A stretch of 38,000 bases of DNA from Actinomycetota bacterium (lineage in GTDB: Bacteria > Actinomycetota > Aquicultoria > Aquicultorales > Aquicultoraceae). Below, piece by piece: positions 14,488 through 29,616 of the stretch. Made by a program: the position numbers and the translations under genes. The stretch spans positions 1-38,000 of the forward strand of contig JACUUO010000010.1 in NCBI GenBank assembly GCA_014859275.1, written 5' to 3'. Positions within the stretch are counted from its first letter, which is position 1. Every line of letters starts with the position of its first letter. The notes beneath the pieces were generated by a model. That model had not been told where the DNA came from and made no database searches. It saw only the letters and a list, made by a program, of their open reading frames with translations.

Positions 14488-16270
14488 TATTGTTCCACCA
14501 GCAGCAATATTTATCATAGGGGCGTTATTTATCCCGCTTTTAAAGGGAAGGCTTAAATCAGCTTACATGCTGCTTCTACCCGTTGTTGCCTTTATAAACA
14601 TTCTCAATATTACCGAAGGAATACACTGGGTCGTCCGTTTTTTGGATTATGAACTAACCTTTGGCAGAGTTGATAGACTTAGCATGATCTTTGGTTATAT
14701 ATTCATCATCGTATCCTTTATTGCAACTCTTTATGCAATCCGGGTAAAAGATGATGGACAGCATATTTCAGCTTTCCTTTATGCCGGAAGTGCTTTAGGG
14801 GCTATCTTCGCAGGAGATTTCTTATCCTTATTCATCTTTTGGGAATTAATGGCTATAACCGCGACATATCTCATATGGGCCCGGAGAACAAAGAAATCCA
14901 TAGCAGCGGGATTCAGATATCTTATGGTTCATATTTTCGGCGGTCTCTGTCTCCTGGTAGGCATATTCATTCATGTGCATAATACAGCTTCTATTGAGTT
15001 TGGATATATAGGATTAAACGGGCTGGCTTCTTATCTCATACTGCTTGGGTTCGGTGTAAACTGCGCTTTCCCGGTTCTTCATGCATGGCTTACCGATGCC
15101 TATCCCGAGGCGACTATAACGGGTACAGTGTTTTTAAGCGCCTTTACCACTAAAGTAGCGGTATATGCGCTTGCAAGGGGATTTCCGGGTACGGAAATCT
15201 TGATATGGGTAGGGGCATTAATGACAGCATTTCCTATCTTCTATGCCGTCATTGAAAATGACCTTAGGAGAGTGCTTGCTTACAGTGTAATCAACCAGGT
15301 CGGGTTTATGGTGGTCGGTATTGGAATTGGAACAGAGCTGGCCATTAATGGGGCTACCGCCCACGCGTTTAACGACATACTATTTAAGGCGCTACTTTTC
15401 ATGTCGATGGGTGCTGTTATGCATCAGACTGGGAAGATTAAGGCCACCGACCTGGGTGGGCTATACAAGTCAATGCCGATAACGACCATATTCTGCATAA
15501 TAGGAGCTGCATCGATTTCGGCAGTACCTTTATTTAGCGCTTTTGTAAGCAAATCAATGGTTGTATCCGCTGTGGCGCACGAAGGCATGGCCATCATATG
15601 GTTTATTCTCATTTTTGCTTCAGTCGGAGTGTTAGAGCATGCTGGAATCAAGATCCCATTTTTTGCGTTTTTCAGCCATGATTCCGGTATCAGGACAAAA
15701 GAGGCTCCGCTTAATATGCTTCTGGCTATGGGAATTGCCGCTTTCTTGTGTATCTTTATTGGCACGTTCCCCGGTTTTCTTTACAGTATTCTTCCATATC
15801 CAGTTGATTATGTGCCATATGCAGCAGGGCATGTTATGAACCAACTCCAGTTGCTCTTCTTCTCGGCGTTGGCCTTCACCATCCTACTGCTAGCAGGAAT
15901 ATACCCGTCGGAAATAAGAGCCATTAATGTTGATGCAGACTGGCCTTATAGAAAAGGCGCCGGGGCCTTTATGTGGTTTATAAATAAACCCATGGCTAAA
16001 GTAGGGGCAAGGATTAATAAAACTGTTTTTGAGGTTATACCCTCGTCTTTAATCTGGGCCAGCAGAAATCCCGGGGGGGCACTAAAGATTGCATCAGATA
16101 CAGTGCTTTTACAGTTTAGCGGCCCAAAGAAAAGAGCGGAGGTTGAACAGAGAATTAAAAAAGAAAAAGAAATTTACCCTGGCAACATAGCAAAACATTG
16201 GCCCATAGGAACAACTGTACTCTGGGTAACACTGTTTTTATTTGTATACCTGCTGCTTTATTACTTGTAA
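14480..16270 (+). CDS. Large NuoL/MrpA-like antiporter subunit, third copy
   Basis: This is a Proton_antipo_M-type protein of about 596 residues. LSMIFGYIFIIVSFIATLYA lies near the N-terminus, the helix-5 acidic residue is in FIFWELMAITATYLIW, and the conserved lysine region covers FPVLHAWLTDAYPEATITGT. ENDLRRVLAYSVINQVGFMV and AHAFNDILFKALLFMSMGAV follow. The C-terminus (about residues 480-596) has further helices after a soluble stretch with KKRAEVEQRIKKEKE. I choose ATG 14480, which has GATGAGG 6 nt upstream; ATG 14468 is the alternative. It overlaps the previous gene by 8 bp. With three large antiporter-like subunits the complex could carry three ion channels. Confidence 0.92.
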   Translation: MVNIVPPAAIFIIGALFIPLLKGRLKSAYMLLLPVVAFINILNITEGIHWVVRFLDYELTFGRVDRLSMIFGYIFIIVSFIATLYAIRVKDDGQHISAFLYAGSALGAIFAGDFLSLFIFWELMAITATYLIWARRTKKSIAAGFRYLMVHIFGGLCLLVGIFIHVHNTASIEFGYIGLNGLASYLILLGFGVNCAFPVLHAWLTDAYPEATITGTVFLSAFTTKVAVYALARGFPGTEILIWVGALMTAFPIFYAVIENDLRRVLAYSVINQVGFMVVGIGIGTELAINGATAHAFNDILFKALLFMSMGAVMHQTGKIKATDLGGLYKSMPITTIFCIIGAASISAVPLFSAFVSKSMVVSAVAHEGMAIIWFILIFASVGVLEHAGIKIPFFAFFSHDSGIRTKEAPLNMLLAMGIAAFLCIFIGTFPGFLYSILPYPVDYVPYAAGHVMNQLQLLFFSALAFTILLLAGIYPSEIRAINVDADWPYRKGAGAFMWFINKPMAKVGARINKTVFEVIPSSLIWASRNPGGALKIASDTVLLQFSGPKKRAEVEQRIKKEKEIYPGNIAKHWPIGTTVLWVTLFLFVYLLLYYL

Positions 16271-21744: not shown

Positions 21745-22077
21745 ATGGGTTTTGAATTTAATGGGAAGCATTACGAAACCGATGAAGATGGTTATCTAGT
21801 GGACCTTGATGACTGGAGTGAGGAGGTGGCAAACTACATAGCGCAGCAGCTTGATGTTGAAATGACTGAGGCTCATTGGGAGGTAGTTAACTTCCTAAGG
21901 GACTACTACCAAGAGTACAAGATTGCTCCAGCAATCAAGATCTTGGTCAAAGAAATGAAGAAGATGTTCGGTCCCGAGAAAGGCAACAATGCGTATCTCT
22001 ATCAGCTATATCCAGGCGGTCCAGCACTGCAGGCTTGTAAGATCGCCGGCCTCCCAAAACCGACCGGCTGCGTGTAA
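21745..22077 (+). CDS. dsrC: DsrC, sulfur-carrier co-substrate of dissimilatory sulfite reductase
   Basis: The 110-residue DsrC/TusE-family protein has the full C-terminal arm with both redox cysteines, Cys98 and the penultimate Cys109, spaced by 10 residues (C-KIAGLPKPTG-C-V). The two cysteines mark true DsrC rather than TusE. It accepts sulfur from DsrAB as a DsrC trisulfide, which DsrMKJOP then reduces. The ATG is preceded by AAAGGAGG. It is separated from dsrN by 228 bp and from dsrM by 384 bp with hairpins on the latter side, so it may be transcribed at a higher level as its own unit, as is common for dsrC. Confidence 0.97.
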   Translation: MGFEFNGKHYETDEDGYLVDLDDWSEEVANYIAQQLDVEMTEAHWEVVNFLRDYYQEYKIAPAIKILVKEMKKMFGPEKGNNAYLYQLYPGGPALQACKIAGLPKPTGCV

Positions 22078-22461: not shown

Positions 22462-23184
22462 ATGAGCGGTTTAACATTGTTCTACACTGCATTTACTTAT
22501 ATAGCGATAGCCATATTTTTATATGGTTTTCTTACTAGAATTTGGAAGTATGCCACGACGCCTTCACCTTTGAAGATCCCCCTTACGCCTGCCCCCGTAC
22601 AGCCAGCCGGTGCGGTTTATAGGATAATTCAAGAGGTAGGTTTCTTCAAAAGTCTTTTCTATAGTAACAGGATCATATGGCTGGCTGGGTATTTATTTCA
22701 TCTTGCGCTGGCCATTGTGCTCATAAAACACGCAAGGTTCTTCTTTGCTTCAACCCCGGTTGCATTCCACTGGATTACGACGTTCGAGATCTGGATCGGA
22801 TTCATCATGTTGTTGCCACTACTTCTTCTGTTTTTATTGAGATTGGTGATCGATAGAACCTACTACATATCAATAATGATGGACTACCTAATCCTCGTGC
22901 TTTTAATGGGCATTGCAGTTACCGGCATACTTACCAAATATTTTGTAAGGACGGATATTGTAAGTGTAAAGCAGTTCGTAATGGGCTTAGTACAAGTAAG
23001 ACCTGAAGCATTGCCAGCAGACCCGATATTTATCATTCATTTTACTCTGGTAATGCTGCTACTTATCTATTTTCCGTTTAGCAAGCTAATGCACGCAGGC
23101 GGAATCTTCTTTAGCCCGACAAGGAATCAGGTTGATGATCCCAGGGAATTAAGGCACGAGACAGCCTGGGCTGCGAAAGGATAG
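22462..23184 (+). CDS. dsrM: DsrM, membrane cytochrome b of the DsrMKJOP complex
   Basis: The 240-residue protein has about five to six transmembrane helices of the NarI-like gamma-subunit family. Histidines suited to haem b ligation lie in LFHLALAIVLIKHARFF and FIIHFTLVMLLLIYFPFSKL-MHAGG. DsrM oxidises menaquinol and passes electrons to DsrK. The ATG follows AAAAGGGA with 6-nt spacing. The DsrK start lies 4 bp beyond the stop. Length agrees with the short DsrM type. It is the first gene of an unbroken dsrMKJOP run. Confidence 0.93.
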   Translation: MSGLTLFYTAFTYIAIAIFLYGFLTRIWKYATTPSPLKIPLTPAPVQPAGAVYRIIQEVGFFKSLFYSNRIIWLAGYLFHLALAIVLIKHARFFFASTPVAFHWITTFEIWIGFIMLLPLLLLFLLRLVIDRTYYISIMMDYLILVLLMGIAVTGILTKYFVRTDIVSVKQFVMGLVQVRPEALPADPIFIIHFTLVMLLLIYFPFSKLMHAGGIFFSPTRNQVDDPRELRHETAWAAKG

Positions 23185-23188
23185 TGAG

Positions 23189-24727
23189 ATGGCAGAAACA
23201 ACAGCTGTAAAAACAGGAATGCCTGCGCCACCTAAAAAGGCGGAAGATGAGATTCCCCAGCTAACAGGCCTAATTCCAAAGCCTAAGATTGTACGGGGTA
23301 CAGCCGCCCACTATAAGGCCTATGTTGCCAAACCTGAGATACAGGAAAAGCTTGATTTTCCTGGAAGCCTAGTGGATAACTGGGAGGAAGCTGCCGTACG
23401 AAGACTGGGCGAACTTCTTGAGAAGTATAAATCACTCCAGGTATACCTGGATATCTGCGTGAGATGTGGTTCTTGTACAGATAAATGTCACTACTTTATA
23501 GGTACTAAAGATCCAAAGAATATGCCAGTGGCAAGGCAGGATCTATTAAGGAAGGTTTATCGTAAATACTTTACATTAGAGGGCAAGGTCCTGGGGAGTT
23601 TAGTGGGAGCTATAGGCTTTGACCTAGAATTGCTTGCTGAGTGGTACAGTTATTTCCATCAGTGTTCACAGTGCAGGCGGTGTTCACTATATTGCCCATA
23701 TGGCATTGATACGGCTGAGATATCAATGGCTGCAAGGGAAATAATGGATTCCATCGGCATGGGTCAAAAGTACACTAATGAGATCATTGGTAAGGTTCAT
23801 GAAATAGGCAACAACTTGGGTTTAAATCCCAAGGCCCTCGCTAATTCGCTCGAAAACGTTGAGGAGGAAATCGAGGAAGATACCGGTGCGCCTGTTAAAT
23901 TGCCGCTTGATGTAGAAGATGCTGATATTCTCCTGGTTACTCCTTCAGCTGACTTCTTTGCACTACCGCATGTTGAGTCGCTAATAGGTTATGCAAAGGT
24001 GTTCCACCAGGCAGGGGTTAATTGGACGCTCAGTTCGACAGCATCAGAGGCCGGCAACTTCGGAATGTTTATCGGAAGTTATGATCAAATGAAAAAGGTT
24101 GCTTTGCGGGTAAGACAAGCGATATTAGAGCTAAGGCCAAAGCGTTTGGTTGTTGGAGAATGCGGCCATGCGTGGAGAATAGCATATTCTTTTTGGAATA
24201 CGCTCATTGGTCCATTTGACATGCTAGATCCGAAGTATCCAAGGCCCCAGCATATCTGCGAATTTACGCTTGATTTAATCAATCGTGGAGCGCTGGAGCT
24301 AGATAAGTCAGCGAACGATGAGTTTGTAGTTACATTTCACGATTCATGTAACGTGGCCCGTGCATCCAGAATGGGTGATAGGCCGGGCGGGCAATTTGAT
24401 ATACCGAGGGAAGTTATTAAAGCCGTTGTTAACAGGTATGTTGATATGGAAGAGGATGCTATAAAGGAGAGAACATTCTGTTGCGGCGGCGGCGGCGGGC
24501 TCCTAACTGATGAGCTTCTGGATTTACGCATAAAGGGGGCTTATCCGAAAGTACAAGCGCTTCGCAACATTATGGACACACATGAGGTTAACTTCATGGC
24601 TCTAATATGCGCGATATGCAAAGCCCAGTTCACCAAAGTACTGCCGAAGTTTAACATACCGATGACAGTTGCAGGCGGCGTACATCAGCTTGTCGGAAGG
24701 GCTGTAGTTCTTGGAGCAAAGGAATGA
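23189..24727 (+). CDS. dsrK: DsrK, HdrD-like iron-sulfur subunit (DsrC disulfide/trisulfide reductase)
   Basis: The 512-residue cytoplasmic protein has two [4Fe-4S] motifs, CVRCGSCTDKC (about residues 91-101) and CSQCRRCSLYC (about 162-172). A C-terminal CCG domain follows, with HDSCNVAR, CCGGGGG and CAICK, the set of ligands for the noncubane cluster of heterodisulfide reductase HdrB/D. DsrK takes electrons from DsrM and reduces oxidised DsrC. It starts 4 bp after dsrM, and its stop overlaps the dsrJ start (ATGA). No key cysteine appears missing. Confidence 0.95.
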   Translation: MAETTAVKTGMPAPPKKAEDEIPQLTGLIPKPKIVRGTAAHYKAYVAKPEIQEKLDFPGSLVDNWEEAAVRRLGELLEKYKSLQVYLDICVRCGSCTDKCHYFIGTKDPKNMPVARQDLLRKVYRKYFTLEGKVLGSLVGAIGFDLELLAEWYSYFHQCSQCRRCSLYCPYGIDTAEISMAAREIMDSIGMGQKYTNEIIGKVHEIGNNLGLNPKALANSLENVEEEIEEDTGAPVKLPLDVEDADILLVTPSADFFALPHVESLIGYAKVFHQAGVNWTLSSTASEAGNFGMFIGSYDQMKKVALRVRQAILELRPKRLVVGECGHAWRIAYSFWNTLIGPFDMLDPKYPRPQHICEFTLDLINRGALELDKSANDEFVVTFHDSCNVARASRMGDRPGGQFDIPREVIKAVVNRYVDMEEDAIKERTFCCGGGGGLLTDELLDLRIKGAYPKVQALRNIMDTHEVNFMALICAICKAQFTKVLPKFNIPMTVAGGVHQLVGRAVVLGAKE

Positions 24728-25095
24728 AGATGAGAGCGATAATTGCATTTCTAGCTTTTCTAATTGTGCTAACGCTACCGTTCTTAGTAAGCGCTGGTAG
24801 CGGAAACATACTGCAAAGTGTCCAAGCGCCGGAGATCGAGCTTCCTGATCCTGAGTTAGGCGAGTGTGTAGAGGATGTTTCTTACATGCGTGCCAATCAC
24901 ATGGTTTTACTGAAGGAAGAGAGAGAGCGGGCTGTAAGGCACGGAGAAAGGGGCGATTATAGCCTAAGTAATTGCTTTAGCTGTCATACTAATATAACAA
25001 CATTTTGCAAGCGTTGTCATGATTATGCAGGCGTAAAGCCCGGTTGTTTTGAAATTGAAGAAGGCTGCCATTACGCCCCGACTTCGAATGATTAA
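24724..25095 (+). CDS. dsrJ: DsrJ, periplasmic multihaem cytochrome c with an atypical third site
   Basis: The 123-residue protein has an uncleaved-type N-terminal helix (about residues 5-24). Cys48 in GECVEDVSYMRANHM matches the cysteine proposed as haem ligand in DsrJ. Two ordinary haem sites follow, Cys84-x2-Cys87-His88 and Cys95-x2-Cys98-His99. Where the family normally has a third CXXCH, this protein has Cys108 and Cys115-His116 separated by six residues (CFEIEEGCH). The site is either a stretched haem-binding motif or lost. DsrJ is the periplasmic redox subunit of DsrMKJOP. It overlaps dsrK by 4 bp. Confidence 0.9.
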   Translation: MKMRAIIAFLAFLIVLTLPFLVSAGSGNILQSVQAPEIELPDPELGECVEDVSYMRANHMVLLKEERERAVRHGERGDYSLSNCFSCHTNITTFCKRCHDYAGVKPGCFEIEEGCHYAPTSND

Positions 25096-25196: not shown

Positions 25197-25925
25197 ATGG
25201 GAATGGACAGACGGACATTTCTTAAATTAGGTGGGGCGTTAGCCTTAGGTAGCTTAATCACCCCTGGCTCACAATTGCTACTGGCATCGCAAGAGAACAA
25301 GACTGGTAACGAGTCAAAGACTAGGTGGGCGATGGTTGTAGACCTTGATAAGTGTAGTGGCTGCAACAAGGAGTGTGAGGAGATATGCAGGGATGAGAAT
25401 AATGTCCCACACTACGGCAACGAGAGATATGATGCTTACTGGCTAAGAGTAGCCGATGTGAAGCAACACCTGCCAGGTGTCGAGACTAGGGAACGGCATA
25501 TTCCGTTGATGTGCCAGCATTGCGATAATCCCCCGTGCGTACATGTATGTCCGACAAAGGCATCGTTTGTGCGGGATGATGGGATTACGCTGATAGACGA
25601 GCATAGATGTATAGGATGCCGGTATTGTGTAATTGCATGCCCATACAGAGCAAGATCACTCATCTTTAGGAAGAGCGATAAATGGACAAATGAAGAAGTT
25701 CCAAAGATGATGATTGGTGTTGTCACCAAGTGCTCGTTCTGTGCTCATAGGGTGGACAAAGGGCAGGATCCGGCATGTGTTGAGAAGTGCCCATATAACG
25801 GACTCATATTCGGCAATATGAACGATCCGAACAGCGAAGTGGCTAAGATTATTGCTACCAAAAACACAAAAATTCTCCGGCCTGAAAAACATCTGGGCCC
25901 AAAAGTATTCTATAAAGGGTTATAG
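25197..25925 (+). CDS. dsrO: DsrO, periplasmic ferredoxin-like iron-sulfur subunit
   Basis: The 242-residue protein begins with a twin-arginine signal, MDRRTFLKLGGALALGS, so it is exported folded with its clusters. Four groups of cysteines of the DmsB/NrfC type follow: CSGCNKECEEIC, CQHCDNPPCVHVC, CIGCRYCVIAC and CSFCAHRVDKGQDPACVEKC. DsrO connects DsrJ with the membrane subunit DsrP. The start has AAAGGGAGAAGG 7 nt upstream. A 101-bp gap without a gene precedes it. Confidence 0.95.
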   Translation: MGMDRRTFLKLGGALALGSLITPGSQLLLASQENKTGNESKTRWAMVVDLDKCSGCNKECEEICRDENNVPHYGNERYDAYWLRVADVKQHLPGVETRERHIPLMCQHCDNPPCVHVCPTKASFVRDDGITLIDEHRCIGCRYCVIACPYRARSLIFRKSDKWTNEEVPKMMIGVVTKCSFCAHRVDKGQDPACVEKCPYNGLIFGNMNDPNSEVAKIIATKNTKILRPEKHLGPKVFYKGL

Positions 25926-25942: not shown

Positions 25943-27136
25943 ATGGCTAGGAAGTACTATTTTGCAAGAATAGAGGGTAAGACACCGAAGTATTATTGGA
26001 CTGTAGGTATACTGGGTGCACTTGTCTTAGGCTGGCTGGTTGCGTCTTACATAAGGTTTGTAGAAGGCATGTATCTCACGGGAATGAGCCATTCTGTACC
26101 CTGGGCAGGCTGCAAGGTGCTATTTGTGCTCTTTGTTGGCCTAAGTGCAGGTTCGTTTATTTTATCCGCGTTAGCAGCGATATTTAAGCAGAAAGAGTAC
26201 AAGGTGCTCTCGAGGGTTGGCGGATATGTCGCCATCTTATTCATGTTAGGCGCACTTGCAATACTTCTTACAGATGAGGGTAGGCCAGACAGGGTTTTAT
26301 TGCTTTTTGTGCCAGGTAATATTAACCCAAGATCAATGCTGTCTTTAAATGCGTTCATTTACACATCGTATATCACATGTGGGATATTGTACCTCTGGGC
26401 GCAGCTTAGGGAAAAAGAAAAGGTAGCAACGGCGTTGGGCATCGTAGCTACCGTACTTGCTGTTGGAGTGCATTCGGGTACGGGGTTCCTATTCAGTATC
26501 GCAAATGGAAGAGAAGCCTTCTTCACCCCGATTACACCGATCGCATTTGTTGTGGCCGCTCTCTCGTCAGGTACTGGCATAGCGATGATAATACTGTACA
26601 CAACATTTAAGCTTACAAAAAGAACCATTGATATGAAGTTTTTCATACAGCTGAGAAGGATATTAACAGGTCTAATCTTCTTCGTCATATACCTTATGAC
26701 GATTGAGCATCTTACCCACCTTTACGTCCCGGAGCATCAGGAAGCAGAGTTTTACATATTTGGTGGCGGTTTCTTTACTTGGGCGTTCTGGGGCGGACTG
26801 ATTGGAATAGGTGGTCTGATCCCGATTATATTACTTCTCAATCCTGCCACTAGGGATAAAATGAAGTGGATACTTACCGCTTCCGCCTTACACGTGTTCG
26901 GGGTGCTGTGCGAAAGAATGATAATCGTTTTACCAGGGCAATTCCTGCCGCAACCGATAATGCCCGGTTATGAGATCGGTAGTGCGTTTCGCGACGGGGT
27001 GATAACAAATTATCTCCCGTCGGTAGCTGAATGGACGCAGATCGTAGGGGTAATAGCTCTTGTAGCATTGTTATATATACTGGGCTTAAGAATGCTACCT
27101 TTGCTCCCGGTTGAAGGGAAATATATTAAGGAATAG
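25943..27136 (+). CDS. dsrP: DsrP, NrfD-like quinone-interacting membrane subunit
   Basis: The 397-residue protein has about ten transmembrane helices of the NrfD/PsrC family. It exchanges electrons between the quinone pool and DsrO. MSHSVPWAGCKVLFVLFVGLS in the N-terminal quarter and RPDRVLLLFVPGNINPRSML are typical of the family. It starts 17 bp after dsrO with GTGAGG upstream. A 13-bp direct repeat, AAGGAATAGCAAG (27128-27140 and 27144-27156), straddles its stop codon. Confidence 0.94.
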   Translation: MARKYYFARIEGKTPKYYWTVGILGALVLGWLVASYIRFVEGMYLTGMSHSVPWAGCKVLFVLFVGLSAGSFILSALAAIFKQKEYKVLSRVGGYVAILFMLGALAILLTDEGRPDRVLLLFVPGNINPRSMLSLNAFIYTSYITCGILYLWAQLREKEKVATALGIVATVLAVGVHSGTGFLFSIANGREAFFTPITPIAFVVAALSSGTGIAMIILYTTFKLTKRTIDMKFFIQLRRILTGLIFFVIYLMTIEHLTHLYVPEHQEAEFYIFGGGFFTWAFWGGLIGIGGLIPIILLLNPATRDKMKWILTASALHVFGVLCERMIIVLPGQFLPQPIMPGYEIGSAFRDGVITNYLPSVAEWTQIVGVIALVALLYILGLRMLPLLPVEGKYIKE

Positions 27137-27243: not shown

Positions 27244-28428
27244 ATGTCAGATGACCTGAAAATTCCACTATTAGATGAGTTGGAAAAGGGGCCGTGGCCA
27301 AGTTTTGTTAAAGACTTGAAAACTTTGGCCCCAAAAAAACCGATGGTTAGAGACTTGTTGCGTCAGCTCGAAAAATCGTATCAGGACAAAAGAGGTTATT
27401 GGAAGCACGGTGGATTGGTGGGTGTGCTGGGTTATGGTGGGGGTGTTATCGGAAGGTATTCTGCGTTACCAGACGAGTTTCCCGGGGTTTCGCACTTCCA
27501 CACTATAAGGGTGCACCAGCCCTCCGGATGGTTCTATACTTCAGAGGCTCTAAACGAGCTGATGGACATATGGGATGCCCATGGTTCGGGCCTTCTGAAC
27601 ATGCACGGGTCAACTGGTGATCTCGTATTTTTAGGTACGGTAACAGACGAGCTTGAGCCGACCTTTAGAGATCTAACAGCGAGGGACTGGGACCTTGGCG
27701 GTTCAGGTTCCGACCTGAGGACACCGAGCTGCTGCGTAGGTCCAGCTCGCTGTGAAAATGCATGCTATGATACTCTAGAGCTCGTTGATAACCTAGCACA
27801 CAGGTTCCAAGATGAGCTGCATAGGCCGATGTTTAATTATAAGTTTAAGATTAAAGCGGCCGGCTGCCCAAATGATTGTGTAGCTGCTATCGCAAGGTCG
27901 GATTTTGGCATAATTGGAATCTGGAAGGATAACATCCAGGTAGACCAAGCTGCTGTTGCAGAGTATGTGGATTCCGGTTTTAATGTTAAAGAGTTCGTGG
28001 TCGATAATTGCCCAACCGGCTGTATGAGCCTAGAAGGCAAGGAGCTCAAAATCGATGACAGCAACTGCGTAAAGTGCATGCATTGCATCAATCTAATGTC
28101 AAAAGCATTAAGCGTAGGAAAAGAGCGCGGAGCGGCCCTTGTAATGGGCGCAAAGGCTCCGATCGTTGAGGGTGCTCTGCTCGGCTCGGTCATAATTCCG
28201 TTCATGGAAATAGAGGAGCCATTCGAAGAGATGCATGACCTGCTTGAGAGGATCTTTGAATTCTGGGATGAATACGGAAAGGCTAGAGAAAGAATTGGCG
28301 AATGTATAGAGCGCATAGGACTTGCCAGCTTCCTGGAGCAAATAGAACTTGAGCCTCTACCTCAAATGGTTACACAGCCGAGAGACAATCCATATATCTT
28401 CTATGAAGAATATTACGAAGAAGAGTAG
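27244..28428 (+). CDS. dsrA: Dissimilatory sulfite reductase alpha subunit
   Basis: The 394-residue DsrA carries the siroheme-[4Fe-4S] ligands as CVGPARC (C-x5-C) and CPNDC (C-x3-C). An inserted ferredoxin domain has CPTGC and [10 protein letters not shown] for a second cluster. With DsrB it forms the cytoplasmic alpha2beta2 enzyme that reduces sulfite with six electrons and loads sulfur on DsrC. AAAAGGAGG precedes the ATG. Length is slightly below that of many DsrA proteins, but no landmark is missing. Confidence 0.97.
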
Positions 28429-28539
28429 GGATAGGGGTAAAGCAAGTTAGGAATAGCCTAGGTAATAAGGAAAGAGTTTAGGGAGCGGTTACCCAGGTGG
28501 TTAAGATACGAAGTGAAATGTGACAGGAGGTATGACTTA

Positions 28540-29616
28540 ATGGCAACTCAAACAGAGAGAAGAACAGATATAGGCCCACCGCATTATAGTCAGTTCTTGC
28601 ACCCGATAATAAAAGAGAATTATGGCAAGTGGAAATACCACGAGACCTTAAAGCCGGGCGTTCTGATGCACGTGGGTGAGACGGGTACAATTTATAGCGT
28701 ACGTGCAGCATCTGCAAGGCTTATAACCATAAGTTTTGTAAGGTTTATGGCGGGTCTAGCAGATAAGTACGCGGATGGATATTTGAGGTTCACGAGCAGG
28801 AACAATATTGAGTTCCTATTGGCCAACAAGGATAACATCGAGCCCTTAATAAAGGAACTCGCTGATAATGGTATACCGGTAGGTGGTACGAATAACGCGA
28901 TATCGAATGTAGTACATACCCAGGGCTGGGTTCACTGCCATTCATCAGCAACCGACGCCTCTGGCTTAGTTAAGGTTATAATGGATGATCTATTCGAGTA
29001 TTTCGGCTCGATGAAGCTGCCGAATAAGCTAAGAATCGCCGTGGCATGCTGTTTGAATATGTGCGGCGCCGTGCATTGCTCGGATATCGCGGTGCTTGGC
29101 GTTCACAGGACGCTGCCAAGAATTGATCACAGCACTCTTGGTAATCTGTGCGAGATTCCAACGACGGTTGCATCGTGCCCAAATAATGCGATTAAGCCAA
29201 CAACGATTGAGGGAAAAACAACAGTTAAAGTAGATGAGGACAAGTGCATGTACTGCGGCAACTGTTATACGGTTTGTCCAGCAATGCCACTGGCCGATCC
29301 GCTAAACGATGGTATCTCGATTTGGGTAGGTGGTAAAATATCAAACGCAAGAACAGAGCCGATGTTTACAAAGCTGGCAATACCATACATCCCAAATAAT
29401 CCACCTAGGTGGCCAGAGGTAACATCTGCAATTAGGAATATCGTAGAGATATATGTTAAGAATGCTAAACCGTACGAGCGTGTTGGGGAGTGGATAAACA
29501 GAATCGGTTGGGCTAAGTTCTTCGATTTGACGGGTATCGAATTTACAAAGTACCACATCGACGACTTCAGGCATGCTGGTACGACCTATAAGAGGTCAGT
29601 ACAGAATAGGTATTAG
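28540..29616 (+). CDS. dsrB: Dissimilatory sulfite reductase beta subunit
   Basis: The 358-residue DsrB is paralogous to DsrA. It has the DsrB-type [16 protein letters not shown] segment and CCLNMCG siroheme ligands, then a ferredoxin domain ([16 protein letters not shown]). I take ATG 28540 (MATQTERRT) because CAGGAGG lies 9 nt upstream; a GTG at 28513 would run through that ribosome site. It is 111 bp downstream of dsrA. The DsrAB type (reductive or oxidative, bacterial or archaeal) needs a tree, but DsrD next door favours reduction. Confidence 0.97.

Follow-up and report, generated by a model that had tools for sequence, protein, structure and literature searches.

The third haem site of DsrJ in a lineage spanning two families of one phylum (Actinomycetota) reads C-x6-CH and, judged from sequence comparison, is a genuine natural variant, real and under selection. 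Our best reading, to which we give a probability of roughly one half, is a functional third haem site on the DsrO side, with an enlarged loop and probably a covalent haem that would be loaded by the ordinary maturation machinery. DsrJ, a small cytochrome of the apparatus for bacterial sulfite reduction, is expected to bind three haems covalently (His/Cys, His/Met, and bis-His ligated). The gene was studied in a 38,000-nucleotide stretch of DNA, hereafter the window.

Gene and operon setting

The window contains a dsr operon in the order dsrN-C-M-K-J-O-P-A-B-D-L (Table 1). Its dsrJ is placed between dsrK and dsrO, the position of the corresponding DsrMKJOP subunit gene, and the product matched the NCBIfam DsrJ profile (NF038038) with 81.5 bits, below the curated cut-off of 100. 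The identification as DsrJ made in the initial annotation was upheld. A canonical sister DsrJ with three CXXCH motifs also fell below the cut-off (83.6 bits), so the threshold shuts out the lineage and not the variant alone.

Translation confirmed the haem motifs as first described. A DsrJ is expected to have three CXXCH motifs; the window copy has two, together with C-x6-CH. Cys48, the conserved cysteine proposed as an unusual axial ligand, was retained in both translation and alignment, in the context GEC48VEDVSYMRANHM. It aligned with that of 56 other DsrJ and was invariant across the 57 aligned sequences. The AF2 model of the window DsrJ showed a helix at residues 2–25 with a pLDDT of about 92. 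Mean pLDDT was 65 for the stretched DsrJ and 64 for a canonical DsrJ, with tails near 40 that are unreliable in both. A PDB sequence search found no solved DsrJ relative.

Table 1. Features of the dsr operon, in window coordinates.
Feature	Position	Strand	Description or evidence
dsrC	21745..22077	+	profile match
dsrM	22462..23184	+	profile match
dsrK	23189..24727	+	568 bits, above cut-off; source of lineage tree
dsrJ	24724..25095	+	123 aa, N-terminally anchored c-type cytochrome, two CXXCH and one C-x6-CH
Cys48 codon, proposed axial Cys ligand	24865..24867	+	translation, alignment
haem motif 1, CFSCH (84-88)	24973..24987	+	translation, alignment
haem motif 2, CKRCH (95-99)	25006..25020	+	translation, alignment
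third motif, stretched, C108-FEIEEG-C115-H116	25045..25071	+	translation, alignment, codons
dsrO	25197..25925	+	278.6 bits, above cut-off; likely periplasmic partner of DsrJ
dsrP	25943..27136	+	NrfD-type membrane subunit
dsrA	27244..28428	+	profile match
dsrB	28513..29616	+	profile match

Conservation and origin of the stretched site

The lineage comprises 14 DsrJ, 13 with C-x6-CH and one with C-x9-CH. Within the window's family, searched among 60 related genomes, three further genomes encode a DsrJ 58–60% identical, with the motifs CFVEAGGCH, CFAEVGGCH, and CFGDRGGCH. Of these, one corresponds to the public MAG 'Actinomycetota bacterium Yes71-11' (L021), and two (G004 and G009) additionally encode a normal DsrJ (CWDCH), its gene lying in a dsrMKJOP operon of its own. 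The second family (f32) came from a search of 396 genomes of the phylum, followed by one of 19 f32 genomes. It contributed ten DsrJ of the lineage, nine with C-x6-CH (e.g. CMDKTGGCH and CFNETGGCH) and one with C-x9-CH (L171, CFGGSTGTGGCH). The four-residue difference had initially been taken as in frame and unlikely to be a sequencing indel, and the conserved spacing in the three family genomes and in f32 agrees with this. A normal motif at the same place in relatives, or a non-conserved Cys108, had been named as grounds for refutation; neither refutes the variant.

Twenty-nine columns were invariant over the 14 sequences, including C48, H59, the Cys and His residues of sites 1 and 2, C108, G114, C115, and H116. 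The positions between C108 and G114 were mostly variable. Codon usage varied at each fixed residue of the third site: C108 (TGT 5, TGC 9), G114 (GGC 6, GGT 5, GGA 3), C115 (TGC 8, TGT 6), and H116 (CAT 10, CAC 4). As these four residues are invariant despite synonymous codon variation, the pattern indicates purifying selection on the components of a haem site, the loop between them being mostly free. Four stretched DsrJ (L166, L167, L170, and L172) show NHQQ in place of NHM and have lost the otherwise invariant Met60.

The outgroup comparison covered 80 DsrJ loci from species-representative genomes, and among these every readable DsrJ outside the lineage had CXXCH as its third motif. The closest outside sequences, from Desantisbacteria and other MAGs (L022–L025), read CFECHYFPTGK and similar (CFECHYxPT). 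Because these relatives have CFECH, the stretched motif is a four-residue insertion between the two cysteines; the comparison shows an ancestral CFECH site extended to C-[FML]-x3-x-G-C-H. In the DsrK tree, stretched and truncated forms make one clade (98/97), with the truncated forms nested among the stretched ones and the CFECH lineage as sister to this clade (84/73). On this topology a single origin of the stretched site is the simplest account.

Loss of the third site and the link to dsrO and dsrP

In f32, twelve further DsrJ contain two CXXCH motifs only. They terminate immediately ahead of where C108 would stand, and position 48 is not a cysteine. These di-haem forms were found in 12 genomes (loci L156–L159, L162, and L173–L182), and their dsrMKJ operons (L184, L186, L188, L190, and L194–L198) follow the layout dsrM-(C)-K-J, with dsrA-B after it or not. 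Both dsrO and dsrP were absent beside dsrJ in all nine readable operons. Where the third site is stretched or normal, the operons run J-O-P, and the stretched site occurred together with dsrO/dsrP in 13 of 14 operons, the remaining one being cut at a contig end. Four genomes carry one operon of each kind, the first without dsrOP and with a di-haem DsrJ, the second J-O-P. In the di-haem genomes examined, the nearest DsrO-like genes lay within molybdoenzyme operons. Since the truncated forms are nested inside the stretched clade, the simplest order puts the loss of DsrOP, Cys48, and the third haem site after the stretching, in one or two events.

Three of the di-haem operons (L186, L197, and L198) belong to genomes with two tandem dsrAB + dsrL sets. 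The second set is strongly diverged, at about 390–460 bits compared with 700–750.

We considered a strict rule by which haem 3 and Cys48 need DsrOP. In a Deferribacteres MAG (L074), Cys48 and three CXXCH motifs are kept although dsrOP is not adjacent and no DsrO exceeds the cut-off. For cable bacteria, a dsrMKJ operon lacking dsrOP has been reported, along with a divergent DsrJ (PMC13047784, PMC10926707). In genome G833, which we infer to be a cable bacterium, dsrMKJ lies on L262, and the DsrO/P homologues adjoin a multihaem gene on L261; its DsrJ (L262:13980-14408) keeps three CXXCH motifs and has lost Cys48 (..NGQSHPPAEEMRAKHM). Loss of DsrOP was thus accompanied by Cys48 loss in two of three cases and by loss of the third haem in one of three. 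These two genomes weaken the strict rule: Cys48 and haem 3 do not go with DsrOP in every case.

Two side observations concern other dsr loci. In G007 the dsr operon (L018, 9698-16473) has a reductive-type dsrMKJOP instead of one with the stretched DsrJ. A remnant resembling dsrM (15453-15899) is left next to dsrC, and the arrangement looks like a replacement in situ. An in-frame TGA was listed for many DsrJ of Desulfobulbales. In the four that were read (L242–L245) the TGA stood at the protein end (..CHLAPVE, then stop), and the similar stretch beyond probably belongs to dsrO as its ribosome-binding region.

The lineage offers a natural series: a normal third site, a stretched site, and loss of that site along with Cys48 and dsrOP. 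It allows tests of which haem owns Cys48, of whether DsrOP is served by that haem, and of the acceptance of C-x6-CH by general haem lyases, and it bears on the role of DsrJ and its unusual Cys-ligated haem.

Haem attachment and comparison with known systems

In our preferred reading His116 would be the proximal ligand of haem 3, and Cys115, most likely together with Cys108, would form thioethers to it across the enlarged loop. Cys48 would be the probable distal ligand, and electrons would pass between DsrJ and DsrO/DsrP through haem 3. Retention of H116, expected for a haem site and not for a plain disulfide, favours this reading, as does the conservation of C108, G114, C115, H116, and C48 with synonymous variation over 14 divergent sequences. 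The DsrO-side placement is favoured by the co-occurrence of the site with dsrO/dsrP and by the operons of truncated DsrJ, which have neither.

The initial annotation had offered two alternatives, only two covalent haems or a spacing to which cytochrome c maturation would have to be adapted, and had pointed to a specialised CcmF/CcsA-type lyase as something to look for. Both alternatives stay plausible; the need for an adapted or specialised lyase was not borne out by the genomes. The window's genome has one System I cluster (CcmB, CcmE, CcmF, CcmA, and CcmC beside hemA; names assigned from the sequences, CcmF and CcmC by PF01578). It holds a single CcmF locus and a lone CcsA-like gene, and the latter also occurs in most relatives, including ones without a stretched DsrJ. 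Each f32 genome has a single CcsA whether its DsrJ is stretched or not; it adjoins a ResB-like gene in the one genome read out. Among 12 + 18 genomes, no PF01578 gene tracks the variant as a dedicated haem lyase would. This favours the ordinary machinery, and the putative haem 3 would be loaded by the cell's ordinary lyase, Ccm in the window's family and CcsBA in the other. The lone CcsA-like protein (L281:379-1335, G000 contig C4) has 318 aa and no ResB nearby; in the window's family this protein shows an atypical, tryptophan-rich WWWSP replacing the usual WWD region.

System I reportedly recognises little beyond CXXCH and gives an abnormal product at altered cysteine spacing (PMC3601427), and CX15CH-type sites depend on dedicated lyases (PMC3601427, PMC6976685). 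Filling of C-x6-CH by ordinary machinery would therefore be new, and the best reading is weakened as no precedent for it was found. A literature search for CX6CH haem sites, which did not reach the key DsrJ biochemistry, found no mention of them. A bolder proposal is that ordinary CcmF and CcsBA each load haem onto C-x6-CH, by a spacing rule looser than thought, and that this haem is the Cys-ligated, DsrO-facing one; we put it forward tentatively, as somewhat improbable.

The third site may instead carry no covalent haem. DsrJ would then be a di-haem protein whose C108 and C115, with H116, make up a metal site, a site for non-covalent haem, or a disulfide, and the stretched form would be a step toward the truncated DsrJ of f32. 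This would fit the spacing that ordinary lyases are not known to manage (PMC3601427), the lack of a special lyase in either family, and the descent of truncated forms from within the stretched clade in the DsrK tree. However, DsrJ that have clearly lost the third motif have also lost the tail and Cys48, whereas in the stretched clade selection maintains C48, C108, C115, and H116 in two families. We regard this explanation as rather unlikely.

Less probable again is a haem 3 held by a single thioether from Cys115 (in GGCH), with Cys108 used otherwise, for instance as a distal ligand close to the haem or as a redox thiol. G114-C115-H116 is invariant and the stretch separating the cysteines mostly free to vary, as if GCH were the attachment unit, and C-x9-CH in L171 shows that the distance to Cys108 may shift by three further residues. 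Against this, Cys108 matches the first cysteine of CFECH in the sister lineage and never varies, and one-cysteine attachment of c-haem is rare among bacteria. Sequencing or assembly error in the window contig can practically be dismissed: the assembly is fragmented (299 contigs), but 12 further genomes, each assembled independently, have C-x6-CH and one more has C-x9-CH, and two of those genomes are also in public records from another collection (L020 and L021).

Compared with DsrJ of known DsrMKJOP complexes (NF038038; Allochromatium vinosum and Desulfovibrio types), the window DsrJ is alike in operon place, N-terminal anchor, Cys48, NHM motif, two CXXCH motifs, and a C-terminal third haem site. 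It differs in that this third site is C-x6-CH, where the known type has CXXCH.

The initial annotation had likened the motif to rare long-spaced ones, which is a fair analogy as far as the spacing goes. Like the MccA/SirA sulfite reductases (CX15CH or CX12NKGCH), the stretched DsrJ is a sulfite-related multihaem cytochrome with a long-spaced haem c motif (C-xn-CH, n = 6, once 9), and the Shewanella motif likewise ends in GCH. MccA and SirA are nevertheless different, octahaem proteins that need the dedicated lyases CcsA1 or SirEFG (PMC3601427, PMC6976685), whereas no extra co-occurring CcsA/CcmF-type lyase was seen with the stretched DsrJ, and this part of the likeness did not hold.

Cable bacteria have DsrTMKJ and a separate DsrOhPh-tetrahaem locus (PMC13047784). 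They resemble the truncated-DsrJ operons of f32 in having a dsrMKJ operon without dsrOP. Their DsrMK, however, is of the reductive type, and the DsrJ read in G833 keeps all three CXXCH motifs while Cys48 is lost.
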